A stretch of DNA of 64,000 nt from Ostrinia nubilalis (Eukaryota; Arthropoda; Insecta; Lepidoptera; Crambidae): contig NC_087104.1 in assembly GCF_963855985.1 (NCBI RefSeq), positions 6,820,001-6,884,000 of the forward strand. The letters run 5' to 3'. Below the pieces are notes generated by a model. That model was not told the origin of the DNA, did no database searches, and saw only the letters and a program-made list of their open reading frames with translations. Position 1 is the first letter of the stretch, and each line of letters starts with the position of its first letter. Shown here in pieces: positions 7,701 to 58,230 of this stretch. The position numbers were made by a program, and so were the translations under genes.

Positions 7701-8065
7701 TGCACAGCGTGCTATGGAGAGGGCTATGCTTGGTGTTTCTTTGCGAGATCGAATCAGAAATGAGGAGATCCGTAAACGAACCAAAGTCGCTGACATAGCC
7801 CGACGGATTAGCAAACTGAAGTGGCAATGGGCAGGGCACATAGTACGCAGAACTGACGGCCGATGGGGCAGAAAGGTTCTGGAATGGAGGCCGCGTACCG
7901 GAAAACGCAGCGTGGGACGTCCACCTACAAGGTGGACCGACGACATCGTAAAGGTAGCAGGGAAGCGCTGGACGCAGGCCGCTACCAATCGATCAACATG
8001 GAAAGCATTGGGGGAGGCCTATGTTCAGCAGTGGACGTCCTATGGCTGAAATGATGATGATGATG
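4750..8065 (+). mobile_element. RTE-clade non-LTR retrotransposon, apparently intact
   Basis: One long open frame is followed directly by an (ATG)n tract at 8051-8065, the simple-repeat 3' tail usual for RTE elements rather than poly(A). The 5' boundary is not defined; the GC-rich start near 4750-4785 probably belongs to it. No clear target-site duplication was found. It lies in sense orientation in a Dscam intron. Partial copies of the same family occur at 2752-2806, 28349-28556 and 61622-61785. Confidence 0.85.
4786..8049 (+). CDS. RTE-type endonuclease / reverse transcriptase
   Basis: A 1,087-residue frame without stops. Residues from about 142 to 390 form an apurinic-type endonuclease: VTHNIRTL at the start, SEVRREG, GDFNAKLG and the catalytic GSDHRMVRG near residue 372. 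The reverse transcriptase spans about 590-880, with NYRPISLLS, AFVDYEKAFDS, RGVRQGDVISP and the catalytic FADD box near 832. The C-terminal region has WAGHIVRR and GRPPTRWTDDI, typical of RTE elements. The protein nicks target DNA and copies its own RNA. The first 130 residues are unlike the rest and may be upstream sequence read from an early ATG. With all key motifs present, the copy could be competent or very young. Confidence 0.92.
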   Translation: MLTFFRQSAVLFLLHTPIFNLEIGRGRRQISACRAVCRVGTAVKNTIPHRQQEACRKRRQNPVARDGQQRLRAKFIKNCARQHACQAWRVSAMIPPMRNTTATRPPVSGSPAVPGYGSGQGSSGAGGAKNLRRRTGYPHQRRLALVTHNIRTLRTDDRITELEDELSRLRWSIMGLSEVRREGEDTITLKSGNLLYYREGEQLSQGGVGFLVHKSLINNIITIGSVSSRVAYLILRVSKRYLLKVIQVYAPTSTHPDEEVEAMYEDISRAIHTTKTYFNVVMGDFNAKLGMRSDDELRVGQFGCGQRNPRGQRLAEFLEKEDLFAMNSFFQKPPHRKWTWMSPDGSTKNEIDFIMTTKRRIFSDVSVINRVKTGSDHRMVRGILNINVKLERSRLMKSMLRPYNSHIHCPESFQLELSNRFACLENCESVDEINNGFVETVQAAGLKFFRPRRKDKPQKLTDHTLNLMAERRAMTLQSSVDATAYRQLNRQIRKSLRHVIRNFNTNSIKEAIERNQGSKVFARDNSIGQSQLTKLTTADGSVTSTKAEVLGEIERFYGQLYTSVTKPVDSSTSDPRAKLTRHYTEDIPDISLYEIRMALKQLKNNKAPGDDGITSELLNAGGTPILKVLQRLFNSVLLQGTTPEAWNRSVVVLFFKKGDKTLLKNYRPISLLSHVYKLFSRVITNRLARRFDDFQPPEQAGFRKGYSTIDHIHTLRQVIQKTEEYNLPLCLAFVDYEKAFDSIETWAVLQSLQRCRIDYRYIEVLKCLYKNATMSVRVQEQSTRAIPLQRGVRQGDVISPKLFTAALEDAFKLLEWKGFGININGEYITHLRFADDIVVMAESLEDLGTMLEDLNRVSQQVGLRMNMDKTKLMSNVHVTPYPVSVRSSILEIVDKYVYLGQTIQLGRSNFEKEVNRRIQLGWAAFGKLRNIFSSKLPQCLKTRVYNQCVLPVITYGSETWPLTIGLIQKLKVAQRAMERAMLGVSLRDRIRNEEIRKRTKVADIARRISKLKWQWAGHIVRRTDGRWGRKVLEWRPRTGKRSVGRPPTRWTDDIVKVAGKRWTQAATNRSTWKALGEAYVQQWTSYG

Positions 8066-10293: not shown

Positions 10294-10455
10294 ATGGTCA
10301 AACGTTGCCGTTGAACAGAAGACAGAAGGTATTCCCCAATGGGACCCTGATAGTGGAGCAAACACAGCGCGGGGAAGACGCCGGGACCTACACCTGTCAG
10401 GCGGCCAACAGGCAGCGGCATGCAGCCAGACGAGACGTAGAAGTACAGATACTGG
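10294..10455 (+). CDS. Dscam: Dscam exon: C-terminal half of Ig6
   Basis: Acceptor cacag before 10294 and donor gtttgt after 10455, phase 1 to 1. The product contains FPNGTLIVEQ and the Ig cysteine signature DAGTYTCQAAN, ending VEVQIL. It is the first exon of the gene recognisable in the window. A decayed copy follows at about 10491-10665. Confidence 0.85.
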
Positions 10456-13400
10456 GTTTGTAGAGACTTTAGAGGCTTTTACTGAACTTACAACAGAAGG
10501 TATACCCCAATGAGACCTTAATAGTGGAGCAGACACCGTGCGGAGAGGACGCTGGGACCTACATCTGTCTACCTGTTATAGCCGGCCAAAAGATAGCGAC
10601 ACGCGGCCAGTCGTGACATAGAAGTGCAGATACTGGGTTTGTATAGCCATTCAAGGGTTTTTACTTACCATATACATATTTCATCCCTGTACTGTCTAGA
10701 TGTGGGGAAGTATTCCTTCCCCCTATAGGACATTCATAAATAAGGTAATCGCATCGTGAAAATGTTACACACCTACTTATACCAACATTTGTCAAGGATT
10801 CGAAGAAAAGCCTGGTAGTGTTAATGGAAATGTACCAAATGGCCACGCAAAAAAAGTCCAGCCTTTTGTTATAGTGTTATCTCAGCGGTTTAAGTAACAG
10901 ACCACTCATCCCCAAGCTACTTATTACTCGGAATACCAACAAACACTAGTATCTAGAATTCCGAATTTTCAAGTTTCAATTCAACGAGTGTTGTATGTAA
11001 AAGCTTTTGTTTCGTCTCTACAAAGAGTAATGTCTTGATACAAAACAGCATTCTCACCACAAAGCTGTTAAGCTTTATCTTCCTTAATCAAGTTTCACCC
11101 ATTCCGAACAATCTTCCTGAACAATAACACAAGTTTCGTGAGCTCATGAATCCCTATGGCAACTGCCACATACCCGTCATGCTTCAGTGGAAATTTGAGT
11201 ATAAACTTTCTCATTTTCTGTAGTAAGATTTAAAGCGCTATAAAATCACGAATTCAAGAGGGGCGGAGTTACTCATCCGTAATTCATTAAAGTTAGCGCG
11301 TTTACCGTTCCCGCGGCATCTACGGAGCGTTAAAATTCTAGCTTTCCGGGTTAATAGAGCAATAAAGTGGAAATATAAAAAATCAGTACAAAATTTCCTC
11401 ACTGAGATGAGGCAGGAAAACGGAGATTTTATACTAATTAACTTTTACTTAAATGTAATAGAAGAATTTGCTCAAAATAATTTGGACTAAGTAGCGTTTA
11501 GCGTGTAAAACCGTGAGTAAACGCTTCCGCACAATTTCATCTTGAACGAGAAATTAAGAAATGCTTTTGATATTTCAGTTCAACCGAAGATCCTGCCTAT
11601 TCAACCGCTCACGAATTTTCTGAGGGAAGGGATGAGGGCGGCGATTTCTTGTCAAATATTGGAGGGGGATTTGCCTATTGCGTTTCGGTGGGAAAAGAAT
11701 GGGCAGCCGGTGACGTCATCGCCGTATGCGCCGAGTGGGATCATCACGAGACGGATGGACGAGTACAGTGCTTCGTTGGTGATAGAGCACATCACGTCGC
11801 TGCATAGTGGGAACTACACGTGCATTGCTTCGAATGTCGCTGGCTCAGAGCGGTTCACTGTACCACTGACCGTCAATGGTAAATAATTTGTTTGTTTTTA
11901 AAGTAACTTTACCTATATTTTTAAAAAGAAAAACATAATATCTGTTATAGGTCTTTCACCAGCTGAATTCCGTCTTGTTCTGTGATGTAAAATAAGCGAA
12001 GTGACCATTTATTATCCAATTCTGTACATTTTTATCGTAAGCTAAGTAATATTTTACGATGTTTATGTTTAGGTATAGTTAATTGCCAACTCTTAACTAT
12101 AACTTTGTATCTGAGGTAGTTTTATCAGATATGGTTTTCTGACGCCAGTTCCACCGAGGTGGCGCTTGGAGCCGAACGACGTGGCCGTAGCGGCTGGCCA
12201 GGACGTCACACTGCAATGCCAAGCGGACGGATACCCAAAGCCTAGTATTACATGGAAAAAGGCCGTAGGTAAGTCTACAATCACAAATACATAGATACAT
12301 TTTTTAATTTTAGCCCGACGTTTGAAAGCCCTATTTATCCTATTTACAAAAAATATTGAAGTCATACTATACTTAAATTGGTGATAATCTTTTATCTCTT
12401 CGTCTCAGCAAAATACAATTCGTTCAGTTTAATCTTGTCTGAGCTACGTCACAAGATGACAACTTAAGTAGTATTACTAGCTAGGGAGTATTCCCTAGCT
12501 AAACTATGCTACTGGTCATTAGAAATTGTTGTAATGGTTATAGGAAAACCCGCCATTTCAGGCAGATCATTAAGCATTCCGCGCTTAGCGGGAATAGAAA
12601 TTACGTCTTACTAATTCGACGGTCCATCTGAAGCCGGCCTCCTGCGTAAAAGGTCCCGCGGGCTCCATTACTAGAGAGTCAATTTGAAAAACAGAACCAA
12701 TTAGGTACAACTGTGTTTTCTCAGTCTCGAATAGAAGTATCTTATTACTATTTCAATTAAATGGTATCGTTACGTGTACATTAGGTTTTATTATAAAGCA
12801 GCAATTAAAAAAAACCATCTGTAAGTCACAGACTTGACGTAGCGTGGTTCATCGTGAGACGAAAACTATTTAATTGTATGGAATATCGCTGCGCAAACGT
12901 CTCACCCTTACTAAATGTGTTCCAAAATGTTATCATAGAACCATAGTATAATAACGAGTTGATAGAACCGCAGTACTTATTATTATTCTGTGATAGAACT
13001 GTTTCCCTACTTTACATATCGTTAAGTTCTATAAAAATCAGTAACTTTTCAGAAGAGCAAATAAAACTTTCACATAGAATATACTCGTGCGTGGTGTACC
13101 ATTCTGTTACTGATGCGTAATTTGTGAGTTTCTTGTTTCCTATTGACCCAACCGAGTATTTAACAAGTGGCATTAAAACTTTTTCAAACCAACTAATTGT
13201 CACTTAGGTACGTGGTGTTATATCGTTCAGTAAATTATATTTTGTTTTTCTCAACCAGGCAACACTCCCGGGGAATACAAGGACTTCATGTTCGAAGGCA
13301 GCTCCCGAGTGCTGGAAAACGGCTCGCTGGTGTTCGAGCGAGTGGCCAAGGACAGCGAAGGCCACTACCTCTGTGAAGCCCGGAATGACATTGGGGCTGG

Positions 13401-16400
13401 ACTCAGCAAGCTCATCTTCCTGAAAGTTAACGGTGAGTTTTTTATCTTCAAAGGCAGTTCATGCGTCTTAGTCAACCCTCGCGGATGTTCGAGCGAGTGG
13501 CCATAAAAGTTTCTAAAGTTAAACGGCTGACGAACAACATAATGACTCCGCTACGACACTGCGTGACTACGCTACGATCAGTGGCGTAACTACAGGGTGG
13601 CAGGACTGGCAAAATGCCACGGGCCCCCGACCGAGCTCAGAAAACAAACTTGAATTGATAGTAGTAATTCATGAGCTTATGATACCAACCAACACAACCA
13701 TGAGCTAGGGCCCCCCTCAATGAATTTGCCACGGGCCTCGGATGATACAGTTACGCCACTGGCTACGACGCCACGTGCTACGATGCTACGTGACTACGCT
13801 ACGATGCTACGTGACTACGCTACGACGCTGCGTGACTATGCTACGACGCCACGTGACTATGCTACGACGCCAAATACATTACCTACTTTATTTTACATCC
13901 CCAAATGATGTTCTGAAAATAATTTACTATTCTTCTATCTCATATAAATTACCTTTATTAACAATACCATAACACAAAAACAAGCCTGCAAAAAGCATAC
14001 CTAATAATCATTTTACTTACATTTAATAATCCCCATTTTGCGAGGTTACTTGCAAACAAGGTCTAACCTCGTTTGGAAAGTATCCTAGCCTATTTGTTTT
14101 ACGTCCCTTACTCTACATTCTGTTACTTTTATGATGCGTAAATGCGTAACTGGGTAAACCACGTGCGTGTATTTGCACAATACAGTCGGCCACATTATTA
14201 AAAATACCCGTTTTTCAGTAAATATTACAACATTCTTTCAAATCGAATCACTTGTTTCTAAAGCTGACTGTACCTACGTCTCTGCATAAAGTTATAAAGC
14301 CAAAAATATAAAAGTTTGGATCCCTGTGCCCTCGCAAAATTCTCATTCGCATGGGTATTACTCATTTTTCACCCTCATAGTCGGCTGTAGTCAAAATTCA
14401 TTTAAGCTTTTACAACCTTTTAAGAACGTTGAATGAAATTACTTTTCTTTATAAAAATGGAGCCGACTTATATAAAATGAGATATTTAAAAAGCCACTTA
14501 AGGATCTAATGTAATTGAAACACCAATCAGCACCAGTATTTTTTACAAAAGAAAATCTGTATAAATGTTGAATGCACAAGTCAGAAGGTTTTAGGCTGCT
14601 TTCTCCATTACCTACAAAACTATAAAATTAAAATAATAATGCATAGATATTATATAAAAAATAACATTCATTTTATTCACTTCTTCGTAAAGCTGCTAGT
14701 GTATCTACATAAAGTTAAATTAATTGCCCAACAAGGAATATGATAGTGTGGCATTTCGTCGAATTACCCGACTCTCTAAACTTTGGTCTATATCAAAACA
14801 AAATCAGGGCAGCTCTGCAAATATACACGTAAACGCTTGTGAAATTAGAAACTAGACCATACGAAGTATACAAAACCAGGAATTCCAGGAATTGCCAGTA
14901 AAACCGCACTTTGTGGCCAGCAAGCCGATGAAATACGGAGTTTCCACAAACAAGTTAGGTGTACTCGAAGCAAGCTATGCTATTAAACTCTCTTACGAGT
15001 ATTTAAAAATAAACTAACTTTGTTAACGATGCAATATATTTTCTGTGAGTATCCGCCAATTTGGCTGCATGGATTTCGTTTTGTAACTAAAGTCGAAACT
15101 TTGAATTTTTACATCCCCCTTGAGTATTGAAGGATGCCTCTCAAACTTTTATCTCTTTACCCCTTTCAAATGTTTTACCAAAAACTTTCCCTATGACTTG
15201 AAATCTGACAACAAACCAATTCTAAAACACATTGGACTCGTGTTTAAGAATGTCACAAAATTGGTTTACGATCTTCTTTACTTTAAGCCCTAAAAACCCA
15301 AAAAGTCCATATAACTAAAAGTCTAGGATAGCCAGATTTGATATCTCCCCGGCGTACACTATTATTATACTGCAACACGTGTTGGTACTTGCTTTTATGA
15401 CTGAACCACGAACAAAGTTAGTCTAGTTTCGCCTGATGAATATTTTATAGAGCGGTGTCCACCAAAATTGCCAGTCTCACACAGCGCTCCGTCCAAATTA
15501 ACGTCTATTGTCTAAGGCCAGTCATTTAATTCAACTGACCTCAAAGGATCCATTCAATTTATCATCAAAGTTTGCGCCGAATATATCTGTATAGACCGTA
15601 TAAATACGAAGGCATCTTTTTGTCGATCCCTTGAAAAGTTGTGGAATGTCTTGATGAAAGTCGTCACCACGATGAGCTTCGGCGGAGCGGGCCGCGCGAC
15701 CGTACTCAAATGAAAATTCTTTTGCGTCATTATTGCTTTGTAGCCAGCCCCGAGCTGCCCCCAGTTGTAAAAAAGACATTAACAGCCGAATATATTCGAC
15801 GCTTCGCCAAGAAAGCCTTACTTATTTTAACAGCCGACTTAAATGTGCGAATCAAATGTGTCAGTTTACGAAAGTAATTGGATTTCCGCCATCGAACGTT
15901 TGATGGTACGATTTTATGTACAGACCGTTATAAAACAACGTTTGATATCAGGAATGATATAACTCAGTATTTATCGTAGAAAACGTAAATAAATAGCAAA
16001 TAATGCTACAGTTATGTTCAGAATGTCTAAAATAAACAAATTATAAACGTAAACAAAAGCTACATGAAACAGCTTTAAAAAAAAGAATAACGACTAGGTT
16101 CATAATAATTTAGATTTAGATAACGTTATAAGTTACAAGGCAGAATACAAATTTCATCTCTTTTGTATTCACTAAGGAGAAAACTAAATAAATAGACTGA
16201 ATAGCCACCAATGTCGACCTTTCATTCCGGCCATAATTCAGTTTCGCACAATAATACCTTCTGAGTCACGTAATGGCGCAAAGTTCCCATGTAAACGCCC
16301 TCGTCGGGGCAGTTTTATTTTAATTCTATAGAATTCCGCAGCCTCCCCGATAACTCGTGCAAATTGTCCGCTGTCCCATTGTACTTAGCTCAAATTAAAG

Positions 16401-52400: not shown

Positions 52401-55284
52401 ACATCCTCCTACTTGTTAGTAGTCCATCACAAAGTGGCATACTTTGCCCAACGTTGCAAACGTTGACATTGCCCAAAACCCTGACTGCCTCACTGATATT
52501 TCACAGCAGACCCCTCAAATAGTCAAGTAACATTTTGTGAGTGTAATGAATTTTGATGGTGGAAACGGGCACAATGCTACCAAACATTTGAGACATTTTT
52601 GAAAACATTGAAACCACACAAGAATTTGACAGCGAGCTCACCGCTAGGCTGCGGCCTACGCACCCCCCTATTTGTTAGTAGTCCACCTCAAGGTGGCATA
52701 TTTGGCCCAATCGACTGACATAAACAAAATTTCCAAAAACTACGTGTAATCCATCCTGGAATGGTATTGGTACTTTACCCTTCGTTCAGCGAGTGTCGAC
52801 GCCAGCGAGCCGGCGGCCAGGCTGCGGCCTACACATCCTCCTACTTGTTAGTAGTCCATCCTGAAAATGGCATACTTTTCCCAACGATGCAAACGTTTAC
52901 ATTCAAAAGTCTGGCTGCCTCACTGATATTCCCTAATTCACTCATCAATCCGCCCTAATTTTCAAGTGACCCCTATGAAAACAAAATCCTGTTGTGTTCA
53001 AATCTAATTTGAGATTGGTGGTGAAAACGGGCATAATGCTACTAAATATTTGAGACATTTTTGAAATTATTGAAACCATACAAGAATCTGACAGCGAGCC
53101 TACTCATCCTCCTACACCTACACTCACAAGGTGGCATACTTTGCCCAATCGACTGACATTAACAAAATTTCCAAAAACTACGTGTAATCCATCCTAAAAT
53201 CGTTCAGCGAGCGACAACGCCAGCGCGCCGCATTCCGACAGCGAGCCGGCGGCCAGGCTGCGGCCTACGCACCCCCCTATTTGTTAGTAGTCCATCACAA
53301 GGTGGCATACTTTGCCCAATCGACTGACATTAACAAAACCTCCGAAAACTACGTGTAAACCATCCCAAAATGGCATTGGTACTTCACCCATCGTTCAGCA
53401 AGTGACGACGTCAGCGCGCCGCATTCCGACAGCGAGCCGGCGGCCAGGCTGCGGCCTACACATCCTACTTGTTAGTAGTCCATCCTGAAAATTGCCCAAC
53501 GTTGGCTCACCTCGCTAAATACAAAAACCCTGACCACCTCACTAATATTTCACAGCAAACCCCTCAAATAGTCAAGTGTCATTTTGTGACTGTAATGCTA
53601 CAAAATATTCGAGACATTTTTGAAAACATTGAAACCACACAAGAATCTGACAGCAAGCCGGCGGCCAGGCTGCGGCCTACGCACCCTCCTACTTGTTAGT
53701 AGTCCATCTCAAGGTGGCATACTTTGCCTAATGACTGCCTCACAAAAAAATCTCCACCACCGCAGAACCACTCGTTTCTTAGGCATTTTTGGAAACATCG
53801 GAATCACAGACAAACATTTAATCCAACAGCGAGCCCGCTGCGAGGCTGCGATCGACTCATCCCCCTACTTGTTAGTAGTCCATCCTGAAAATGACCCAAC
53901 GTTGGCTCACCTCGTTAAATACAAACCCCTGACTGCCTCACTAATATTTCACAGCAAACCCCTCAAATAGTCAAGTGTCATTTTGTGACTGTAATGCTAC
54001 CAAATATTTGAGACATTTTTGAAAACATTGAAACCACACAAGAATCTGACAGCGAGCCCGCGGCGAGGCTGCGGCCTACGCACTTCCCTACTTGTTAGTA
54101 GTCCATGATTGGTATACTTGCCCAATGACCCCCTCCCCTGGGACTACGGGTGTCTATGGGCGACGGTAATCACTTACCATCAGGTGATCCGTCTGCTCGT
54201 TTGCCTCCTGTCACATAAAAATAAAAAAACTGCTACTAATAAAGTATTTTTGTAAGGCTGGTTTTAGTGTCACGCGGACCGTCCGCACGGCCAATCTGTA
54301 TGAACTTCTAGGGAGCGTTTTAGAGTTATGCCGTCCGGAGGAACCGCTCCCTAGCAGTTCATACAAATCGGCTGTGCGGAGCAATTCGCACTGACAGTCC
54401 GCGTGACACTAAAACCAGCCTGATAGATCCAAAGCAACCACTTGCAAACCATCAAGCTGAAAAGAAGGTACTTCCCCATCTAACCTCACCACCGCATTTA
54501 AATTGACCTCTATTCCAGACCCGAGCGTAGAGCGCGAGGAATCTTCCTCTTCATCAGAGAACTCCGTAGGAGGTGTGGTCCGAAAGGCCTTCCCTTCCCG
54601 AAAGGGGAAGGCAGGCGTCGGGAAGCGACACGTGAGATCCTCTAGTGGCTACAGCAGCCACAACGACGAGACTACCTTCAGGTAAAGTTAGTGTCGAATA
54701 CGGATTGTGGAATCAGACCTTTGGTTTCGCCTGGGCGCATCGTTACAGTCAAAAATTGAGAGAATACATCGACTATTTTAAAAGTAACGATCTCCTATCA
54801 GTTCCTGAATAATCTGCGCCGCGTTTAAATATGAATTTTTAGAAGAGCTTTGCTGATGGATCCACTTGGGCGATTCATGAGGTAACTGATTCTGTGATCC
54901 GTATTGTCTTCACAACAACCGCTTCCATAACTTTGGCTACTTATAAATCAATGTTCAACAGCTTTAATCTACCCTCAAGCGACCTATCTACTAAATCTTA
55001 GTTACAGACGCGTTTTCGATGTTTGATGTTGATATTGACCAGCCTATGTAAAGCAACATGCAGCATGCGCATAAAAGCCAAAAGTTTGGGAAACTGGGAA
55101 TCCCCGCCCAAAGACTAAATCGACCGCCGGTTCCAGCATATCCAACTACCCGTCGTTCAACGAGCGCATCCACCCGCCGTCGCGCTTCTCTGACGACACT
55201 GAGTGCGACGCGCCTGCGCGCCGCAAGCGCCACCACCACCACGCCGAGCACAAGCCGCGTGAGGCCTTCCAGATCAATGTCTGA
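10294..55284 (+). CDS. Dscam: Dscam-family cell adhesion receptor, 3' 26 exons (5' end outside the window)
   Basis: Homophilic neuronal cell-surface receptor of the immunoglobulin superfamily. The joined exons give, in order, half of Ig6, Ig7, Ig8, Ig9, FN1-FN4, Ig10, FN5, FN6, one transmembrane helix and a cytoplasmic tail, which is the diagnostic Dscam order with Ig10 between FN4 and FN5. Conserved Dscam phrases include PPRW and WKKA in Ig8, YTIREQ in Ig9, VPEMP at the start of FN1, WNGNILGYYVGF in FN2, EDICPYATFQL in the tail and FQINV at the C-terminus. All 25 junctions are phase-compatible, giving 4,145 coding bases (about 1,380 residues). The Ig7 exon is single, so a Dscam2/3/4-class paralogue is more likely than Dscam1; which one cannot be settled here. 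N-terminal Ig1-Ig5 and the first half of Ig6 were not found in 1-10293. Introns hold large transposons and many partial exon copies. Confidence 0.95.
10491..10665 (+). repeat. Decayed downstream copy of the Ig6 exon 3' part plus donor
   Basis: The sequence repeats the parent exon from cagaaggta through the segment encoding EDAGTYTC and on to the end motif gatactgggtttgta, including the donor and some following intron. An insertion after the TGT codon and in-frame stops make it non-coding. Confidence 0.8.
11579..11878 (+). CDS. Dscam: Dscam exon: complete Ig7 domain
   Basis: A single 300-bp exon (acceptor tatttcag, donor gtaaat, phase 1 to 1) encodes a whole Ig domain with EGMRAAISCQILEGDLP and GNYTCIASNVAG. 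It corresponds to the alternatively spliced exon 9 cluster of Dscam1 and the duplicated Ig7 exon of fly Dscam2. No second Ig7 exon was found between 10455 and 12149. Confidence 0.92.
12149..12268 (+). CDS. Dscam: Dscam exon: N-terminal half of Ig8
   Basis: Acceptor gacgccag and donor gtaagt, phase 1 to 1. The product begins VPPRWRLEP and contains VTLQCQADGYPKPSITWKKA, the first cysteine and tryptophan of an Ig fold. Confidence 0.92.
13259..13432 (+). CDS. Dscam: Dscam exon: C-terminal half of Ig8
   Basis: Acceptor tcaaccag and donor gtgagt, phase 1 to 1. The product has NTPGEYKDF and the second Ig cysteine in SEGHYLCEARNDIGAG, closely following the Dscam Ig8 pattern. Confidence 0.93.
13441..13530 (+). 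repeat. Decayed copy of the Ig8 C-half exon
   Basis: Immediately after the exon, the intron repeats its parts: aaaggcagttcatgcg matches the segment encoding GSSRV, gttcgagcgagtggcca is identical to the segment encoding FERVA, and aaagttaaacggctgac matches the exon end with the donor GT changed to GCT. An internal deletion and stops mean it is not coding. Confidence 0.75.
13525..13875. repeat. About 21-bp minisatellite, (ctacgctacgatgctacgtga)n-like
   Basis: Variants of a unit of about 21 bp built from gctacgatgctacgtgacta recur from about 13540 to 13870, interrupted by a small hAT-like element. The open frames across it are a by-product of the repeat. Confidence 0.8.
13579..13761. mobile_element. 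Small non-autonomous hAT-like MITE
   Basis: It begins CAGTGGCGTAAC and ends with the inverted GTTACGCCACTG. It is flanked by gctacgat and gctacgac (7 of 8 matching, as expected for an 8-bp target duplication), although the surrounding minisatellite could give that match by itself. No coding capacity is visible. Confidence 0.65.
17284..17345 (+). repeat. Dispersed repeat, copy 1 (copy 2 at 18364-18428)
   Basis: gacgcgcgtctgagcggaaa...ctcgatg...ttattggagacag is closely related to the segment at 18364-18428, in the same orientation. The GC-rich segments stand out in an AT-rich intron; nature unknown. Confidence 0.65.
18364..18428 (+). repeat. Dispersed repeat, copy 2
   Basis: gacgcgcgtcggagcggaaa...ctcgatgggcgg...ttattggagacggg, second member of the pair. 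Confidence 0.65.
20187..20310 (+). repeat. 5' LTR of the mag-like element
   Basis: Begins TGTTGTGTATGTGGG and ends CATATTTAACA. No difference from the copy at 24402-24525 was noticed. It contains AATAAA (gaaataaacc), a likely polyadenylation signal. Confidence 0.95.
20344..24348 (+). CDS. Gag-Pol polyprotein of the mag-like element
   Basis: A 1,334-residue uninterrupted frame. Gag ends with two zinc knuckles near residues 209-242 (CSVCGYTNHKTAQC and CKKCNTKGHLRRMC). A protease with the DSG active site follows near 286. The reverse transcriptase has the catalytic pair in LLDDVLV near 568, and the RNase H has TVDASPTG near 718 and RTDHKP. The integrase carries an HHCC finger, then HIDFLG, SDNG and QAES, giving the DDE triad near 1010, 1066 and 1101. 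Gag and Pol are in one frame with no shift site. There is no envelope frame. Confidence 0.93.
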   Translation: MSHFGILSSFDHTLQNWATYKSRIAQWFIANEIGAKTDGDGVKRRAILLSALSDTTYGLAADLALPKKLDEVTYEGILKLLDKHFTPKLCGFSERHKFYAAVQELEETPSQWAARLRGLTAHCSFKNIEETLRDRFIMGMLPGPEKEKLFTQDVDTLELAKAVEIAESVRSARFGAAAAASSAPQQNQLFKINPRPNNSSNARASKEKCSVCGYTNHKTAQCRFANYKCKKCNTKGHLRRMCKVNVITNEEGESDDDGKLFVIRAHRGEPMTEFVSLNGVRLKFEIDSGSAVTVMSEKDFSTHFTSVPLSATNKRLCSYTGDRINCVGVARLPAVYLGCTNILDVYVVRDGGPPLLGRDFISLFNLQLSPCNYVSDVKTDESLVISQLQMRFPQVFADKLGTFNKYTVKLHLKDNAKPMFFKARPVAFALRDKVGKEIERLVALGVLKPVDNAEYASPIVPVLKRNGSVRLCADYSVSINKQLIVDHYPLPTINELFSKLHGGKQFSKLDLSMAYNQFLLDEESQNITCINTHRGLFKYTRLVFGLASAPSIFQRAMENVLAGMEGVLCLLDDVLVTADNKKTHMERLHAVLDRLQNAGLTLQKEKCEFFKDEINYLGYVINQYGLKKSPDKVKAIVDAPVPTDINKLQSFLGLANYYRNFVPGASSVLSPLYDLLKKGTKWNWSEVHDKAFKDIKSILASEKVLAHFNPDAKIILTVDASPTGLGAILSQVGCDGLERPISFASRTLNPAEKRYSQIQKEATAIIFGVRRYHQYLFGRSHPFVLRTDHKPLISIFGPYKGVPEVSANRLQRYAMFLSAYNYSIEYVRSGDNSADYLSRASLPEPGAGAGASAGSDINVDRASYINFVVEGSMPVTLNILQAETTKDDILTLVTKYVTNGWPKKVTNPKLIPYFLCRNQLSYENGCLMRGHKVVIPVKLQNSVIKELHNSHLGIVKTKAEARSRFWFPGVDAALEKMVSSCNICLQLRPTPPKAPLAPWKYPSEPFSRLHIDFLGPINNRMFFVVVDAHTKWLEVYDMSNVTTTLSVVERLYDFMSRFGLPQTIVSDNGTAFTSQEFKQFCLLNGIEHITSPAYHPSSNGQAESFVKIVKRGLKSVLLSTQNLKQLKLMLHKFLFDYRNSVHSVTGKSPAELVYGRKLRSRLDLFNPLQSVAPPSSLINDVTNKQCLQSKNYGGKNKQCFSNGDTVLYKKHFGNNKFHWCMGTVLRKKGNVLYLLKDVLSNSIVKKHKNQIVMYKGDSISQNTTTYLDDENSDKASSTLQQSLNSQEPLLPEGGRVERELPTNSTCPTTDNQVLSRNPTRLLRNIPRVDYKKYL
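24402..24525 (+). repeat. 3' LTR of the mag-like element
   Basis: Second copy of the 124-bp LTR, preceded by the purine tract and followed by the target duplication tcaac. Confidence 0.95.
24531..25571. other. Long Dscam intron (right part)
   Basis: No further gene, repeat or transposon end recognised before the Ig9 exon. Confidence 0.5.
25572..25722 (+). CDS. Dscam: Dscam exon: N-terminal half of Ig9
   Basis: Acceptor gcccacag and donor gtgagt, phase 1 to 2. The product begins APARFPMKSKTVQVTVG and carries the first Ig cysteine and tryptophan in LQCAASGDAPLEVSW. The histidine-rich stretch HHHTIAHH after the tryptophan is unusual. It is separated from the Ig8 exons by a 12.1-kb intron holding an LTR element. 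Confidence 0.9.
25974..26124 (+). CDS. Dscam: Dscam exon: C-terminal half of Ig9
   Basis: Acceptor tttccag and donor gtgagt, phase 2 to 0. It encodes YTIREQVLDDG and LTCRTSNTYGQDEM, ending LVVQE, matching the YTIREE and MIVQE landmarks of Dscam Ig9. Confidence 0.95.
26232..26361 (+). CDS. Dscam: Dscam exon: FN1, N-terminal part
   Basis: Acceptor ttaccag and donor gtattt, phase 0 to 1. The product begins VPEMPKNIRI and includes ISWTQPYAGNSPIINYIVQY, the first fibronectin III domain after Ig9. Confidence 0.93.
26509..26676 (+). CDS. Dscam: Dscam exon: FN1, C-terminal part
   Basis: Acceptor tttgcag and donor gtaaca, phase 1 to 1. It encodes LQPATSYHLRIIAENRLGQS, the typical FN3 core with the AxNxxG-like turn, and ends VTTTEE. 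Confidence 0.93.
26885..27015 (+). CDS. Dscam: Dscam exon: FN2, N-terminal part
   Basis: Acceptor ttttccag and donor gtaagt, phase 1 to 0. It encodes VPSGPPLDVRVEAKSS and WEPPQRDLWNGNILGYYVGF, very close to the Dscam FN2 consensus. Confidence 0.95.
27298..27508 (+). CDS. Dscam: Dscam exon: FN2, C-terminal part
   Basis: Acceptor cattgcag and donor gtgagt, phase 0 to 1. It encodes LSGLQKHAAYAIVVQAYNSR, then GAGPASPPT, the end of an FN3 fold. A GC-rich insert encoding SGPGGASY lies in the loop. Confidence 0.93.
27628..27774 (+). CDS. Dscam: Dscam exon: FN3, N-terminal part
   Basis: Acceptor cttttcag and donor gttagt, phase 1 to 1. It encodes VPSLPPGSLQCTAVSSQ and GYRVTYAPVTDWY, matching the YKVVYAPSDEWY region of Dscam FN3. 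Confidence 0.93.
28126..28281 (+). CDS. Dscam: Dscam exon: FN3, C-terminal part
   Basis: Acceptor atctccag and donor gtgagt, phase 1 to 1. It encodes LSGLRRYTNYSVTVCAFTAA, then GDGVRAAPVYCHTEED, the conserved end of Dscam FN3. Confidence 0.93.
28349..28556 (+). mobile_element. RTE 3'-end relic
   Basis: ggggcagaaaagttctcgag to gggggaggcatttgtccagc follows the last 200 bp of the RTE frame (the region encoding WGRKVLEW and GRPPTRW) with stops. The LTR element inserted just after its end. Confidence 0.85.
28565..29425 (+). repeat. 5' LTR (861 bp)
   Basis: GC-rich first half, AT-rich second half. It contains a TATA-like ttaatataag near 28660. Small open frames inside it recur in the other LTR and are not genes. 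Confidence 0.93.
29535..31691 (+). CDS. Gag-protease fused to an integrase zinc-finger remnant
   Basis: A 718-residue frame. The N-terminal part is Gag-like with a capsid-type segment (FLKGKAVLWYRNNK). A CCHC knuckle CWSCGKQGHSMKDC lies near residue 288, with a degenerate second one after it. The aspartic protease ALVDTGATRSYI is near 358. After a Lys-rich linker comes an integrase H2C2 finger (GHLGTAKTLNKISQRYYWPG to CKTCQI, about 594-630). The frame then passes into an acidic/basic tail with no homology seen. Reverse transcriptase, RNase H and the DDE core are absent, so the element needs enzymes from elsewhere. Whether the joined protein is functional or a chance open frame is unknown. Confidence 0.85.
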   Translation: MSEPTSWIYKLKKTELENECKRRNIKTENRTVQELRQNLTEVLRTKQSRQPVQSASKSAENSESETDFEDTEMHQELDNDKPNMSYTMDQTENITSRWNISFDTCNDPVEFLEQLDELISSGEVKPDKVLKVLPRFLKGKAVLWYRNNKNSFTTWNEFIELFTLTFVSRDSDLLAKIVNYRQHHRQKFTDYLIEIQTLMRRYAKMSKEEEINRIYENMNAKYKFYIKKSEADSVSKLIQLANDYENVTAERQTSFTEREPRNNYHETSTNQEHKEAASYIHNYNTNTCCWSCGKQGHSMKDCRSKKILFCNGCGKIGKMSKQCCKKTSEYTQSMTINTSPQIKDNRPFVDVSILGEKYQALVDTGATRSYINDQVYKKFVKRNLKPKTVSITASMTDGHTTRIKEALDLQINIKGKTINHQVLYHPQIKSILIGMDILNRIGAKIEWPKDSTKQGEQVGTTSKKTTEANIVPTYEMAVRTEEETLTSKKKHKTKLAHEKPIKKKDYSRNPKNQEIINKHVTRLTLEKQKDWIQKKIQELQKNGNKDYKMSNNNLHRKITNHAYGPRTEASPDWKLCINNKEKDQILKENHDTPIAGHLGTAKTLNKISQRYYWPGMYRDVSTYVKNCKTCQINNARKTWSVVSTNPSRSLPISSNRSTDWTEILDVDTVDYPQDLDWRESGPGEEPTRAEDQTRRRPGRKKRRGQTQNQLNKASNIYS
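31692..33044. repeat. AT-rich non-coding interior of the deleted LTR element, with tandem repeats
   Basis: No coding frame. A unit of about 80 bp with acattgtttcaaaactaagt is repeated four times at about 32525-32845. A looser pair of repeats with attacatagcaaccctgtat lies at about 31815-31990. Confidence 0.85.
33060..33920 (+). repeat. 3' LTR (861 bp)
   Basis: Near-identical to the 5' LTR, directly preceded by acaagggagga and followed by the target duplication aata. Confidence 0.93.
34113..34252 (+). CDS. Dscam: Dscam exon: FN4, N-terminal part
   Basis: Acceptor ttttctag and donor gtgagt, phase 1 to 0. It encodes VPSAPADIKAVVSSRNKILV and WLPPAAPNGVLVGYTLYMS. The preceding 5.8-kb intron holds an LTR element. 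Confidence 0.92.
34742..34898 (+). CDS. Dscam: Dscam exon: FN4, C-terminal part (copy a)
   Basis: Acceptor gttccaag and donor gtaaga, phase 0 to 1. It encodes EGTHKRMLSPSTLSHE, then FWVSASTRLGEGE and VVTVLPSDS, matching FWVTASTTIGEG and AMPSD of Dscam FN4. Copy a is chosen as the default because it is longer and fills the expected length. A near-identical exon lies 45 bp downstream. Confidence 0.88.
34944..35082 (+). CDS. Dscam: Candidate mutually exclusive copy of the FN4 C-terminal exon (copy b)
   Basis: A second copy of the preceding exon with its own acceptor (gaccttcag) and donor (gtgaga). It is phase 0 to 1, exactly as copy a, and its open frame starts ILSPIKFSHE where copy a has EGTHKRMLSPSTLSHE. 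After that the encoded residues appear identical, with only a few DNA changes. Including both copies would break the frame, and the 45-nt gap is probably too short to be spliced as an intron. The acceptor has a weak pyrimidine tract, so use is inferred. It may simply be a recent tandem duplicate. Confidence 0.55.
35277..35454 (+). CDS. Dscam: Dscam exon: N-terminal part of Ig10
   Basis: Acceptor cattctag and donor gtaagc, phase 1 to 2. It encodes VPARITSFSR and ENISLSCNKVGVPTPSTIW, with the first cysteine and tryptophan of the Ig domain that sits between FN4 and FN5. Confidence 0.93.
35806..35996 (+). CDS. Dscam: Dscam exon: end of Ig10 and start of FN5
   Basis: Acceptor ttcgacag and donor gtaagt, phase 2 to 1. 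It encodes ADSGNYTCSVENIHGRDE (second Ig cysteine), the linker VKVPPQPPVLAVV and the FN5 strand LHLQWSDQGDGGSPIL. Partial copies follow in the intron. Confidence 0.93.
36053..36411 (+). repeat. Three partial, scrambled copies of the Ig10/FN5 exon
   Basis: Copy 1 (36053-36140) and copy 2 (36191-36313) repeat the part encoding VTYSVEVKVP through SYADSLHL. Copy 2 also reaches the splice site, where gtaagtcaag has become ctaagtcaag. Copy 3 (36363-36411) repeats the earlier part around NYTCSVENIH. All are broken by stops or lost splice sites. Confidence 0.85.
36436..36621 (+). CDS. Dscam: Dscam exon: FN5, C-terminal part
   Basis: Acceptor tctttcag and donor gtgagt, phase 1 to 1. It encodes GYVINYKREHGDWEELQV and LWCGTRYQLYITAFNRIGTG, matching the LLCGSRYQVYATGFN region of Dscam FN5. 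Confidence 0.95.
36749..36885 (+). CDS. Dscam: Dscam exon: FN6, N-terminal part
   Basis: Acceptor catttcag and donor gtaatt, phase 1 to 0. It encodes VPVKPKHSQMITLNTTTVT and WGDGGCGILYFVIEYRE, the conserved WxDGGC motif of FN6. Confidence 0.95.
37129..37285 (+). CDS. Dscam: Dscam exon: FN6, C-terminal part
   Basis: Acceptor aatttcag and donor gtgagt, phase 0 to 1. It encodes WRLVSNSVQATERVFSV, LTPAAHYQLRITAHNNAG and YNFTTHSLSG, the end of the ectodomain before the stalk. The exon is GC-rich. Its last 101 bp, with the donor, start the tandem array that follows. Confidence 0.93.
37185..39795 (+). repeat. 152-bp tandem array built from the FN6 exon 3' end and its donor (17 complete units and a partial)
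   Basis: The unit runs from cctgacgcccgccgcgcac through the end of the FN6 exon, its donor ggca/gtgagt and about 50 bp of intron. Unit starts recur every 152 bp from 37185 to 39771. Two units carry a gcagcggccgcag variant and are 153 bp; otherwise only single-base changes are seen (near 38065 and 38817). The 18th unit is cut by the hAT-like insertion at 39797. Each unit keeps the donor, and an AG 26 nt after it opens a stop-free 126-nt phase 1-1 block. Confidence 0.97.
40319..41746. mobile_element. Foldback element, first copy
   Basis: Ends GGCCAGTAGAATTA and its inverse, flanked by TA. Arms of roughly 580 bp (about 40319-40905 and 41165-41746) are inverted copies sharing acttcgacggagttgtgctt. 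The centre contains a Helitron-like fragment (aagaaaaatgttgcaagcac to cacgcgtacgaag). Confidence 0.8.
42315..42590. pseudogene. Broken mariner-type transposase fragments
   Basis: Minus-strand WFHQDGATCHTS (about 42330-42365) and plus-strand ADFFLWGYLMSRVYSN (about 42525-42576) are two adjacent conserved motifs of mariner-family transposases, here on opposite strands. This shows an internal inversion and loss of function. Confidence 0.7.
42630..42860. repeat. GC-rich (GCCGCC)n-like island inside the mariner-like element
   Basis: A strongly GC-rich block with cgccgccgcgccgccgccgc repeats in an AT-rich element. The right arm holds only its edges (about 45035-45075), so it was deleted there or inserted on the left only. 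Origin unknown. Confidence 0.7.
43464..44419. mobile_element. Foldback element, second copy
   Basis: Same family as 40319-41746: GGCCAGTAGAATTA at the left, its near-inverse at the right, TA flanks, and the shared arm sequence cggagttgtgcttaagtggt. It sits at the centre of the larger palindrome. Confidence 0.78.
45436..45699. mobile_element. Foldback MITE
   Basis: CAGGGTGTTAGGTAAATGGG at the left is inverted at the right (with small differences), flanked by TA. The arms share cccatgttaacatggg and cover most of the 264 bp. Tc1/mariner-type target choice. Confidence 0.85.
45873..46232. other. Intron end before the transmembrane exon, with a GGTGATCAAAG motif cluster
   Basis: It starts with a diverged remainder of the FN6 array unit (gctgcagttgatgaccacgg). 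Between 46045 and 46172 the 11-mer ggtgatcaaag occurs five times in both orientations (starts near 46046, 46070, 46097, 46130 and 46161). No coding frame. Confidence 0.7.
46233..46373 (+). CDS. Dscam: Dscam exon: extracellular stalk and transmembrane helix
   Basis: Acceptor cttccag and donor gtaagt, phase 1 to 1. It encodes a Pro/Ala-rich stalk (LDGELSPPVPAAGARS), a hydrophobic helix VILPAALSLLVLGALIAIVL, and then RR, a positive-inside stop-transfer signal. It is separated from the FN6 exon by the 152-bp array and a 6-kb transposon. Confidence 0.9.
46813..46968 (+). CDS. Dscam: Dscam exon: juxtamembrane cytoplasmic segment
   Basis: Acceptor tatatccag, phase 1 to 1. It encodes ETAAESGVGESPSVAQLQNK, then VNRDQQYLAARAQ and PPPPHHYKHASN. 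The donor is gtcggt at 46969 or gtaacg at 46963; both keep the frame, so the last two residues are uncertain. Four partial copies follow. Confidence 0.82.
47005..47525 (+). repeat. Four 136-bp tandem copies of the juxtamembrane exon 3' part plus donor
   Basis: Copies starting near 47013, 47149, 47285 and 47421 repeat the segment encoding SPSVAQLQNKVNRDQQYL and HHYKHASN, the donor context cacgccagtaacggtcggtg and following intron. A stretch of about 20 bp (GCGCGCACAGCACCCGCC) present in the parent is missing from all four, so they descend from one shortened copy. The acceptor-like AGs available lead to in-frame stops. Confidence 0.92.
47766..47923 (+). CDS. Dscam: Dscam exon: cytoplasmic tail, EDICPYATFQL segment
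   Basis: Acceptor atttccag and donor gtacgt, phase 1 to 0. It encodes EYIEDICPYATFQLTKP and YSGPYHSVRGSFVYHDLK. The ICPYATF phrase is shared with the Dscam1 tail. Several tyrosines (YSGPYHSV, FVYHD) are candidate phosphorylation or adaptor sites, which is inferred only. Confidence 0.93.
47940..48083 (+). repeat. Downstream copy of the EDICPYATF exon with intact donor
   Basis: The intron repeats the exon from tgcccctacg through gacaagtacaaggtgagt, keeping the reading frame and donor but with a shortened middle and no parent-like acceptor. A weak AG at 47943 would give a phase 1-0 exon like its parent, but only 20 nt downstream of it. Confidence 0.85.
48468..48540 (+). CDS. Dscam: Dscam exon: cytoplasmic tail, PEYTKVRRKG segment
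   Basis: A 73-bp exon with acceptor ttgaacag and donor gtacgc, phase 0 to 1. It encodes GKEPEYTKVRRKGNRLRDP, then HSESQ, a basic segment joining the two conserved tail parts. Confidence 0.88.
48541..49719. other. Dscam intron with a short cttgccactttcataattga repeat
   Basis: AT-rich. Around 48855-48960 the phrase ttgattcttgcca recurs about three times. No exon or transposon end recognised; the flanking exons join in phase. Confidence 0.5.
49720..49878 (+). CDS. Dscam: Dscam exon: acidic cytoplasmic segment
   Basis: Acceptor cattgcag; donor gttagt at 49879, phase 1 to 1. It encodes ESDNLGSTDSEVKKILTLHL, then an acidic Ser/Asp stretch (EYEDDASDDASAPHSDSEP) and LRPTHPPT. The donor itself contains in-frame stop codons, so unspliced RNA would end in PPTC. 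The downstream exon fits only if this donor is used. The 3' end is copied about 20 times downstream. Confidence 0.85.
49985..54115 (+). repeat. Degenerate array of about 20 copies of the acidic-tail exon 3' end and donor, with an 842-bp higher-order repeat
   Basis: The core ggcggccaggctgcggccta followed by catcctcctacttgttagta recurs irregularly, usually with flanking intron (caaggtggcatactttgccc, ctgacattaacaaaacctcc). A block at 49996-50837 is repeated with no difference noticed at 50838-51679 and begins again at 51680, a higher-order period of 842 bp. Copies further right are more diverged. Seven copies are bounded by an AG acceptor and the gttagt donor with open phase 1-1 frames. Confidence 0.93.
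54120..54240 (+). mobile_element. Non-LTR/SINE 3'-tail-like fragment
   Basis: gggcgacggtaatcacttac, then caggtgatccgtctgctcgt and a short A-rich end. From memory this conserved tail is very common in lepidopteran genomes. Family assignment is uncertain. Confidence 0.55.
54256..54420. mobile_element. MITE with 25-bp-class inverted ends
   Basis: Left end ggctggttttagtgtcacgc is exactly inverted at the right end (gcgtgacactaaaaccagcc). The inner parts gaacttctagggagcg / cgctccctagcagttc also pair. The flanking triplets taa and tga leave the target duplication unclear; PIF/Harbinger-like is possible. Confidence 0.75.
54519..54681 (+). CDS. Dscam: Dscam exon: Ser-rich and basic cytoplasmic segment
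   Basis: Acceptor tattccag and donor gtaaag, phase 1 to 2. It encodes PSVEREESSSSSENSVGGVV, then a basic stretch (RKGKAGVGKRHVRSSSG) and YSSHNDETTF. The serine cluster in an acidic context looks like casein-kinase-type sites (inferred). Confidence 0.88.
55137..55284 (+). CDS. Dscam: Dscam last exon, C-terminus FQINV and stop
   Basis: Acceptor ggttccag, phase 2. It encodes SISNYPSFNERIHPPSRFSD, a basic/histidine run RRKRHHHH and EAFQINV before TGA at 55282-55284. The hydrophobic C-terminus could bind a PDZ domain (inferred). Confidence 0.92.
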
Positions 55285-58230
55285 GGCCTCTGAGACCACT
55301 AGCAGGCTCACTTTGTAACGTACTCGTTGACGGGCAACTAACGCTAAAAATGAAAATTTGGGCATCCCCAAAATCTAAATCCATCACAACGCTCTGACCT
55401 TCCAGGCCTTCCAGATCAACATCTGAGGCTACTAATATCTAGCAGGCTCTTTTAATGCTAATTAGGTACGGGCAACTAACGCTAAAATCCAAGTTTGGGA
55501 ACGGAATATCCATCCAAAAACTAAATGCACTACCACGCCTCAGAGCACAAGCCGCGCAAGGTCTTCCAGATTAACGTCTGGGGTCTTTGAGGCCACTTTC
55601 AATTCATATTCACTTTATAATATACTCACCTATGTGGGCTATTTTGTAAATTATGACGTTATTTCGTGGTAATGCCGAGCTGAATCAACAATGGAGGACT
55701 CTTCTTCCTTCTTATTTTTCTCCCGTAAAATATTATACTTTTAGCAAGCTGTGACTGCCCTAAAATAGCCCGGTTAGGGCACCTCGAGATTTCGAGTATC
55801 TTAGCGAAGTCAAAGCTCCAGATCTTTCCGATTCGCTCTAGAGCCTCTGTATCAACAATTAGGGTGTAAACTCTGTCCAGAAGTTATAAGATCCTGTTCT
55901 TTTCACGTTTGACAAATGTACTTGGATATATACTTCTCGTTAAAATTACAAAAAATATTATGACGAATTTTAAAATACTTAAAAACAAACAAACGAAATT
56001 GGCCTCGTCATTTGTGTTTGCAAATGAGTACAAAAATATTACATCTTTTTAAAGAAATTATGTGCTAAATCGCAACTGAAGCTCAATTTTCTTACTTATA
56101 GACAAATGGTGAGCGGACTAATTTACTTATGTTTTCTATCGTTAATTGTCTCGTAATGCTTGTGAATAATTATTTCTGAACGTTGCCAAACACTGAATTA
56201 TCGTACTGCTGATAATATTGTACATATAGTGTGTAGTTAGGTAAACATAGTCAATACGGTTACAAATACTCTTTAGTGGCGCATACAATAATCATTTTTA
56301 TATTCCGAAATTGAGTATTTTAATAACATTGTATAATGAACGGTGTGAAACAACGCCACAAGTGTGACAAATATATCCACACTCGGGCTCTCTGCCGTAG
56401 GTCCGATGTGATTAATTGAAATTAGTATAAAAGTAATTTTACTAACCACTACTGCATCTACTAATACAATCCATTAATTTCAAAATTACTTGACACTGCT
56501 TCCATAAAATTATGACCCATCAATATAAAGAAATAGCTTTAAAAATTGTCTAATTTCAATCAATTGCAACGCACCAGTCGTTATGTAAATATTATTGTAA
56601 TTAATGTGTACTTACGACTATCGAATGTAAAACTAAGGAGAACAATAATTAAAATTAAAAATATATTTTAAACTTAATGCCTTATTGACCAAAGTCTTAA
56701 AACTAGTTGCGGATGCGATTGAAAAATCGTATCCGATATTTAAATTATTGTTTAATTGTTGTAAAGTTTATGAAAACACACGTTTTCATTGAAATGTCTT
56801 ATCATTGTCTATAACAGTAAGATTTGAAGTTTGTAAATTGGGTACTTCCAAGTGCATAATAATATTTATATCGTAGAAGTAATCGTTTGTGATGTGCCAA
56901 CTGTGCAAAACTATTGCAATTTATTATCATGAAGTGTATGCAAGATAATGTGGACGCCCTTATAGTTTTATTCACGCTATTTTGAAGATTTTCCCGCGAT
57001 TTTTATACATAGCTCTGTTACATTGCCAAGTCGCTCTTTAATCTATGCATTTGTTTGTAATCTATGACTTCTTAACCCACCGCTATCCGAGAGATTTTTC
57101 TAAGATTCGCGCTTTATACTCGAGTACTAATAGTCGAATTAATCATACTAGTAATATACGATCCTCAGTAAACAGTAACACAAGACAATACACTTACCTA
57201 TAGTTTTTTGGTGAATACGGCAGAAAGTTAACTTTGTATATCTCTTAATAGAATTTGCCAAATTGTTCTTCTTCTTTATGGAGTTTATAAAACAAGTGTA
57301 ATAGCATAAATCGGTCGCACTTATAACTTTTAAGATTGGTTGACAACGAATTGTCACCCTAGTGTTTCAATGTCAGGACATAAAGTCACGTGGTTTCGAA
57401 TTTCACTATTAGATTAATTTTATATGAGTTACAAATATTTACTAAATACATTCTGGTAATTTAGTGGGTGCCTAAGTAAAGACACTACAATTTTATTGCA
57501 AAATCGCTCCTACATCTGACTAAAACAGAAGAAGGGGAGGAGCTAAGTGACACTTCCCCTCGCACTGAATCACAGCATAACCAAAAACCAACTTAATTAA
57601 ATGTCAAATAAGTTCGAAATTAGATTGATTTAATCACGCTACAGAAAACCATCGACTTCGTCATTTTGGTAATTTCTAATAAAAGAACCTCTATGTACAT
57701 TTGAAGTGTATCAGTATGTTGTAGTCATAGTTTATGAGTGTTGAACACTTAACGCGGAGTTTTGTATTCAAAGACACATTTTTACGTGAGTTGTGTGGTT
57801 TTTAATGATTTACAATCGTTTGCGTTGACTCTCTTTAGTAATTCCAACGAAGACTGCCCTATATTTAATTGAGATCTATTTTATATAATCTAGACACAAA
57901 TACCTAATGCTAGTTAATCGAAATCATTATGTAGTTTTAGTAGTCAATGAGATAATGGTTTTAATGAAATTACTATTTGCAATTGGAAACGATTTCGTTT
58001 TGATCACGAGCGAGGTTTTAAATATTTGCAAATATTAATGTTATCATTTTTATTCTAGTCATTTGAATTCTGACTCGTCTAGTCAACGTACCATATCATT
58101 TTTAAACGTTTTGTTACTATACGTGGATACACATGAATAATGTAAGGGTTAGTTAATCATGTTGTTACAGATATGTTTTTATAAAGCAAACAAATGAGTT
58201 ATTAGGACAGTATGATGTGAACGAAATAAA
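55285..58230 (+). other. Probable Dscam 3' UTR
   Basis: AT-rich sequence after the stop codon with no recognisable coding exon. Its first 330 bp hold the last-exon copies. A polyadenylation signal AATAAA lies at 58225-58230, about 2.9 kb past the stop. A long 3' UTR suits a neuronal gene, but the true cleavage site cannot be fixed from the sequence. Confidence 0.5.
55341..55610 (+). repeat. Two decayed tandem copies of the Dscam last-exon region
   Basis: The unit comprises the end of the last intron (aagtttggga...ggaat...cccaaagactaaat), part of the exon and its 3' flank (gggcaactaacgctaaaa). Copies lie at about 55341-55490 (ccttccagatcaacatctga) and 55491-55610 (gagcacaagccgcgcaaggt). Neither keeps the full exon. 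Confidence 0.85.

Follow-up and report, generated by a model that had tools for sequence, protein, structure and literature searches.

The exons of the mutually exclusive Dscam1 clusters are whole exons, each with an acceptor and a donor splice site. In the moth Ostrinia nubilalis, we describe exon copies in a Dscam paralogue that carry the donor side of the parent exon and lie immediately downstream of it; these copies are referred to here as echoes. The stretch analyzed is 64,000 nucleotides long (C17:6820001-6884000, hereafter the window) and contains much of the lepidopteran Dscam2, a nerve-cell gene whose concatenated exon translations match Galleria mellonella Dscam2 at 96% identity. The Dscam1 clusters (PMC1397879, PMC8042237) likewise consist of tandem exon copies in a Dscam gene. 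Unlike those clusters, the echoes have no acceptor, the Ig2b copies excepted, and therefore do not constitute an exon cluster.

Several other systems share features with these copies. Repair-mediated proximal duplication in humans (Pace et al. 2009, PMC2671141) is likewise short, local, similar in unit size and repeated over evolution, with copies within 5 kb of the source having a mean of 162 bp and a median of 147 bp. However, Pace et al. leave out copies closer than 50 bp to the source, regarding them as tandem, whereas the moth copies are tandem, and partial exon/intron sources account for 4 of 824 human donors, whereas 12 of 23 repeat clusters at the moth locus are exonic. Minisatellite slippage and duplication at Okazaki flaps (PMC12633238) resemble the echoes in their head-to-tail units and growth to arrays. 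Intron gain by tandem duplication also crosses an intron–exon boundary, but on the acceptor side (intron 1/exon 2) and with a new intron as its product, whereas the moth echoes arise on the donor side and lie inside an existing intron. Nick repair is a further route to short tandem duplication, yet general models of slippage, flaps or nicks would not predict an exon-anchored, donor-spanning polarity. The first-pass annotation of this DNA knew of no description of the pattern, and none of donor-spanning exon echoes was found in the open-access literature, a scope outside which most subscription journals fall. Tandem duplication itself is known; its exon anchoring, polarity and frequency appear to be new.

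Tandem copies of exon 3' ends in Dscam2

Adding 40 kb upstream of the window gave 104 kb of gene region. Exons were mapped by tblastn with the Galleria and Cydia orthologues followed by splice-site scoring, which yielded 35 exons totaling 5,904 bp, with the ends of a few (linker, Ig5, juxtamembrane) placed by hand; within the 104-kb stretch, no exon ahead of residue 92 of P0001 was found. By eye, the mapped exons track the Galleria and Cydia proteins with no extra break visible, a comparison with those proteins and not with the exon structure of other moth genes. Echoes were detected by self-BLAST of the window, ortholog tblastn, local searches with exon queries and an exon-blind self-comparison of the 104 kb, and genome searches were run against the 495-Mb, 52-contig assembly. 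All nine exon sets for which downstream copies had been noticed in the window were recovered by self-BLAST, tblastn and local searches, the Ig8 set only weakly. Three further echo exons lie upstream of the window (C17:6788368, C17:6796801 and C17:6807133), so that 12 of the 35 Dscam2 exons have downstream sense copies. The local exon search gave 11 of these 12 sets; the Ig8 copy, which lay within the flank skipped by that search, came from the exon-blind comparison. The sets within the window are as follows, in window positions.

10294..10455, plus strand: Ig6 exon, parent (tblastn with P0001 at 100% identity, splice sites)
10493..10665, plus strand: one Ig6 echo with a 171-bp unit, about 84% identical in a gapped alignment, retaining the donor GTTTGT but not the acceptor (self-BLAST, alignment)
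13259..13432, plus strand: Ig8 exon, parent (tblastn, splice sites)
13441..13503, plus strand: weak Ig8 echo of the exon middle, 64 nt at 75%, donor not reached, offset 156 bp (exon-blind self-comparison)
34742..34898, plus strand: FN4 exon, parent (tblastn, splice sites)
34948..35111, plus strand: FN4 echo, 93%, donor GTGAGA, unit 184 bp (self-BLAST, alignment)
35806..35996, plus strand: Ig10/FN5 exon, parent (tblastn, splice sites)
36060-36139, 36187-36315 and 36370-36417, plus strand: three Ig10/FN5 echoes, the donor missing in copy 1, mutated (CTAAGT) in copy 2 and not reached in copy 3 (local search, alignment)
37129..37285, plus strand: FN6 exon, parent (tblastn, splice sites)
37329..39796, plus strand: FN6 echo array repeating every 152 bp, 17 downstream matches, identity to the parent 97-99%, donor GTGAGT in 16 of 16 full copies aligned (tandem-repeat and local searches, alignment)
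46813..46968, plus strand: juxtamembrane exon, parent (tblastn, end fixed by reading frame)
47015..47534, plus strand: four juxtamembrane echoes, spaced by 156 and then 136 bp, donor GTCGGT kept (local search, alignment)
47766..47923, plus strand: EDICPYATF exon, parent (tblastn, splice sites)
47993..48104, plus strand: one EDICPYATF echo, 92-94%, with fainter protein-level homology from 47952 (self-BLAST, tblastn, alignment)
49720..49878, plus strand: acidic-tail exon, parent, donor GTTAGT (tblastn, splice sites)
49996..54135, plus strand: tail-exon echoes, 14 to 20 depending on the query (20 matches as far as 54135; a 101-nt query gave 14 in addition to the parent), shortest spacings 150-191 bp and an 842-bp higher-order repeat (self-BLAST, local searches)
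55137..55284, plus strand: last coding exon through the stop codon, no donor (tblastn)
55404-55449 and 55528-55597, plus strand: two last-exon echoes that repeat the end of the coding sequence and run through the stop codon, located in the presumed 3' untranslated region (self-BLAST, local search)

Echoes are head-to-tail, same-strand tandem duplications with a regular period, although the juxtamembrane array and two arrays in other genes (L037, L052) have two spacings. The typical unit begins within the exon, crosses the 5' splice site and ends in the intron, and the copy directly follows the duplicated segment or trails it by a few tens of bases. Homology starts between 22 and about 140 nt into the Dscam2 exons, at Ig2b alone with the first base of the exon. 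The gap between donor and first copy is 8-69 nt at 10 of the 11 Dscam2 echo exons with a donor and 117 nt at the tail exon; larger gaps were also seen outside Dscam2 (L036, about 94 nt; L044, 103 nt; L038, 251 nt). In all, 25 loci were examined at sequence level, 12 in Dscam2 and 13 elsewhere, and parent and first copy are spaced by 135-190 bp at 19 of them, counting the mixed L052 as 140 bp by its 3' part. None of the units read in sequence contains a whole acceptor. Junction microhomology, read by eye at two loci, is absent at L038 and about five bases long at L036.

The claim that internal copies keep the 3' end and donor of the parent and lose its acceptor holds for most of them. Of the 50 copies aligned, 46 have an intact donor GT, with the donor position set by eye at L029, L038 and L044; the tail, last-exon, Ig8, third Ig10, L031 and L049-L052 copies stand outside this count. 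The claim fails for the Ig8 copy, one Ig3b copy and one Ig10 copy, which stop short of the donor, for the last exon, which has none, and for Ig2b (C17:6796801-6797300). The two extra copies of Ig2b are near-complete, start at the first base of the exon and retain both the acceptor CAG and the donor; they have a 1-nt deletion and lie about 26 nt apart. No other copies at the locus come as close to a potential mutually exclusive exon. The similarity of copy and parent extends from about 72% identity in the last exon to 99% in FN6; the duplication is therefore recurrent, and the proposal of a repeated tandem process of varied age is borne out.

The copies were further said to lie in sense orientation downstream of their parents, and a recheck of strand and side across the 104 kb agrees: it gave 60 sense matches, no antisense match and one upstream match, with four exon sides too short for searching. 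The sole upstream match, at the linker exon (C17:6811827), is weak, spanning 41 nt at 80% identity (cluster D31275, C17:6811275). Downstream copies at 12 Dscam2 exons against upstream copies at one give a binomial p of 0.003, and outside Dscam2 each of the 13 echo loci examined is also downstream and donor-spanning.

The exon-blind self-comparison identified 23 local repeat clusters, of which 12 are the echo sets. Exons with 80 nt added make up 8.4% of the 104 kb and hold these 12 clusters (binomial p = 7e-8), and the exon excess is therefore not due to chance. Among the other 11, three belong to dispersed repeats (D1008, D1902, D39806), and two (D71796, D72525) are enclosed by the terminal repeats of an element resembling long terminal repeat (LTR) elements. 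D53543 consists of 21-bp repeats, D31275 is the linker-exon match, and D14423 and D57284 are pairs of short repeats with spacings of 316 and 1,080 bp. The clear cases of unique intronic arrays are D33472 and D10249 (106 bp). D33472 (L012, C17:6813472-6814722) has a period of about 165 bp, all five of its genome matches fall at the site, and no coding match was recognised in it. A nucleosome-size preference of non-exonic tandem pairs was also considered and rejected, as D1008, D39806 and L025 belong to one dispersed family and D1902 and L019 to another; the claim about unit size therefore rests on exonic loci. The first family is about 290 bp long and consists of a tandem pair of halves, each of about 142 bp (C17:6781008-6781298; C17:6819806-6820098, reaching window position 98; L025:1153-1469), and the second has a period near 157 bp. 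Three tandem pairs from 16 arbitrary stretches (L013, L022, L027) were not traced to dispersed families.

Guanine–cytosine (GC) content differs between exons with echoes (61%) and those without (53%, p = 0.004). GC-richness as the sole cause was rejected: of 33 non-exonic 150-bp intervals of this locus with at least 55% GC, only 1 overlaps a repeat cluster, compared with 11 of the 21 exons that reach this GC content, with overlap judged by eye.

Echoes in other genes

The copies had been regarded as a property of Dscam, a view that sampling of other genes did not sustain. From 138 protein-kinase profile matches, 97 of them partial, 16 exons were drawn from the partial ones by a fixed random seed and read in 2-kb stretches. 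Four of the 16 have echoes (L036, L037, L038 and L047), compared with 12 of 35 in Dscam2 (Fisher p = 0.75), and none of the 16 has an upstream or antisense copy. A further kinase exon, neighbouring a sampled one, has an echo (L044). One of 16 stretches set at round coordinates regardless of genes contains an exon with two echoes (L028), in a gene taken to encode an ion channel from Ion_trans matches on both sides. Seven echo loci were chosen because their profile matches repeat, namely three kinases (L029, L030, L031), an ABC gene (L032), two kinesins (L049, L050) and a tyrosine kinase (L052), and these inform structure, not frequency. Echoing is thus found in kinase, kinesin, tyrosine-kinase, ABC and channel genes and is not Dscam-specific. 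A comparable echo density in other genes, which the first-pass annotation had named as evidence against its reading, was largely seen in the kinase sample, although two of the four copies there hold a short exon part and the PTP matches gave no groups.

A survey by coordinates covered all 93 kinesin matches, all 48 PTP matches and 102 of at least 152 tyrosine-kinase matches. The kinesin and tyrosine-kinase matches listed include at least 16 groups of neighbours covering the same profile range, and in 12 of the 16 the first member is the longest or tied, among the matches listed. The other four are L050, L052, the C7 group and a group on C5. Three of the four groups read in sequence are echoes, L050 and L052 being ordinary ones with the acceptor on the first copy, and one is false (C7, L051). 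An apparent upstream partial copy at that C7 group was rejected as a counterexample, as no repeat is present there. The tyrosine-kinase exon array L052 (C16:6368551-6370300) has two alternating unit types and resembles the Dscam2 tail array. At C13:4757784-4761746, judged from coordinates only, six more matches cover the same kinase exon at intervals of about 390-630 bp.

The suggestion that the echoes represent the raw process behind the variable-exon clusters of Dscam genes was not supported either: copies other than those of Ig2b have no acceptor, and Dscam1 itself shows no echo-like neighbours outside its clusters, in the weak test given below.

Other repeated elements of the window

The sequence past the FN6 array (from 39797) and past the Ig8 echo (from 13577) enters in both cases CAGTGGCG-type starts, which we take to resemble DNA-transposon ends. 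The intron ahead of Ig6 holds a 1103-amino-acid open frame at 4738-8049 that is endonuclease- and reverse-transcriptase-like, presumably of the long interspersed nuclear element type, and a 195-bp piece at 28357-28551 is related to it at 72%. An LTR-like element at 20187-24525 contains a 1337-amino-acid open frame; its 124-bp terminal repeats are identical, and it is presumably a recent insertion. Direct repeats of 863 bp, 99.8% identical, surround a 720-amino-acid open frame at 28564-33921, and they also enclose, at 32525-32838, a 79/159-bp tandem array. The intron between the FN6 and transmembrane exons contains large direct repeats that have diverged (84%, 80%), at 40315-44421.

Origin and meaning of the echoes

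It is established that the copies are tandem, concentrate at exons, extend across the donor with one polarity, typically have units of 135-190 bp and vary in age; what we infer concerns the causes. The explanation that we prefer, and to which we give roughly even credence, is that exons are hotspots of tandem duplication in many genes of the moth and that selection then removes products disturbing the exon or its acceptor. Exons carry positioned nucleosomes, and the unit size resembles nucleosomal and Okazaki-fragment lengths. Coding exons would accordingly be hotspots for recurrent, roughly nucleosome-sized tandem duplication, with the unit reflecting a mononucleosome or an Okazaki fragment and exons being favoured for that reason; GC content would contribute but would be insufficient alone. 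A duplication shifted in the 3' direction would leave acceptor, exon and donor intact, and the added donor, transcribed second, would mostly be ignored. A 5'-shifted duplication would place a competing acceptor first and one within the exon would break the reading frame, and both would be lost. As a further filter, a copy nearer to the donor than a minimal intron could not be spliced in as an extra exon; the short donor-to-copy distances at most loci fit this, since splicing cannot remove a gap shorter than a minimal intron. Some copies would then grow into arrays such as FN6 by unequal exchange or rolling-circle copying. The echo of the last exon across the stop codon fits a filter rather than a machine bound to the donor.

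The decay of the copies bears on this selection. Across 24 Dscam2 copies, differences from the parent at codon positions 1, 2 and 3 number 43, 25 and 128, and 4 of the 24 carry frameshift indels. In a set of 14 copies aligned with their introns, divergence is similar at third positions (18.5%) and in the intron (16.9%), with four nonsense differences; copies within one array are not independent. First and second positions diverge by 5.4% in this set, in which seven differences of L044 are misbinned by a one-base frame offset. Neutral copies, at half the intron divergence, would be expected to reach about 8.4%. Weak constraint on the copies, biased mutation or shared ancestry of array copies may account for the shortfall.

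Several observations weigh against the preferred explanation. In addition to that shortfall, the third-position excess is sharper than neutrality of the copy and constraint on the parent would by themselves produce. The strict polarity, with its one weak exception, would require highly efficient purging if mutation were symmetric, and the purging is itself something we infer. The donor-to-copy gaps at the tail exon, L036, L044 and L038 (117, about 94, 103 and 251 nt) are beyond a minimal intron, and the spacing falls outside 135-190 bp at 6 of the 25 loci (L036, 97 bp; L049, 126 bp; L050, 203 bp; L032, 211 bp; L031, 230 bp; L038, 281 bp). Three of the 12 Dscam2 sets deviate from the usual form, the Ig8 copy lacking a donor, the last exon having none and Ig2b keeping its AG. 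The L036 and L038 copies include little exon (about 8 and 30 nt). The 48 PTP matches contain no group of same-range neighbours, and by eye none occurs among the Dscam1 matches (C6) outside its two exon clusters; the latter is a weak test, at whose sensitivity only four Dscam2 exons show their echoes.

A broader statement, possible although we hold it with distinctly less conviction, is that a polar, genome-wide mutational process copies exon 3' ends and 5' splice sites into the next intron in nucleosome-sized steps. Such a process would be steered by chromatin or transcription and not by sequence, would affect roughly one in four to one in three of the exons sampled, and would seed introns with donor-bearing pieces for later splice variants or exons.

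The main rival, tentative at best and somewhat doubtful, dispenses with purging altogether. A break, an R-loop or a stalled polymerase just past the 5' splice site would lead repair or template switching to re-copy the preceding 150 bases. The position of the intron breakpoints, 8-69 nt beyond the donor at all but one of the 11 donor-bearing Dscam2 exons, suits this process, as does the lack of a whole acceptor in any unit read. Moreover, the background rate, estimated roughly by hand from the small number of unique non-exonic tandem pairs, predicts fewer than one acceptor-spanning event, and the absence of such events therefore needs no purging. However, the donor-less last exon echoes as well, and the locus contains unique non-exonic tandem arrays (D33472, 165 bp; D10249, 106 bp).

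Small circular DNA is an unlikely source. Exon-rich microDNA circles, copied by rolling circle and reinserted beside their source, would deliver ready-made arrays, such as FN6 with its 16 full copies at 97-99%. MicroDNA is reported to be exon-enriched with a nucleosome-length periodicity (PMC6511871). Its circles, however, are reportedly mostly 200-400 bp, longer than most units here. A single copy stands beside the parent at Ig6, FN4, EDICPYATF and L038, and the FN6 and tail units were found nowhere else in the genome.

Random short tandem duplication without exon preference, merely easier to notice where a conserved parent is involved, seems quite improbable. Similarity does decay at roughly half the rate where the parent is constrained, and non-exonic tandem pairs do occur in 160 kb of arbitrary stretches. 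Yet the exon-blind search found all 12 sets, placing 12 of 23 clusters in 8.4% of the sequence, near-identical arrays are exonic too, and a twofold detection bias would be too small for such an excess.

We consider a gene-specific process that makes Dscam alternative exons very improbable: the gene is a Dscam paralogue and the Ig2b copies keep CAG and donor, but echoes are similarly frequent in random kinase exons, the remaining copies have no acceptors, the Ig2b copies bear a 1-nt deletion, and the Dscam1 matches outside the clusters, in the weak test above, have no same-range neighbours. Assembly artefact or capture by a mobile element is scarcely credible either, since those copies that are 7-25% diverged, with differences of their own, are not misassembled duplicates, and the units adjoin their parents in sense orientation without dispersal of the FN6 and tail units (18 of 18 genome matches of the FN6 unit within the array, 15 of 15 of the tail unit at the locus); long near-identical arrays such as FN6 are nevertheless prone to copy-number errors, and the FN6 copy number in the assembly could be wrong. 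A retrocopy or mobile-element origin was rejected on the unspliced intron starts in the units, the adjoining parent and the lack of dispersal of the FN6 and tail units, poly-A tracts and terminal repeats not having been searched for.

Exon duplication is a main source of alternative splicing, yet the step that precedes selection is seldom seen. Here, one genome presents one polarity at many stages, from near-identical copies to about 70% identity. The donor-bearing exon pieces in introns of the moth genome also constitute an annotation hazard, as they could be miscalled as exons. If the pattern is mutational, it would reveal a duplication process steered by gene structure; if it is selective, it would provide a natural assay of the partial-exon duplications that splicing tolerates.

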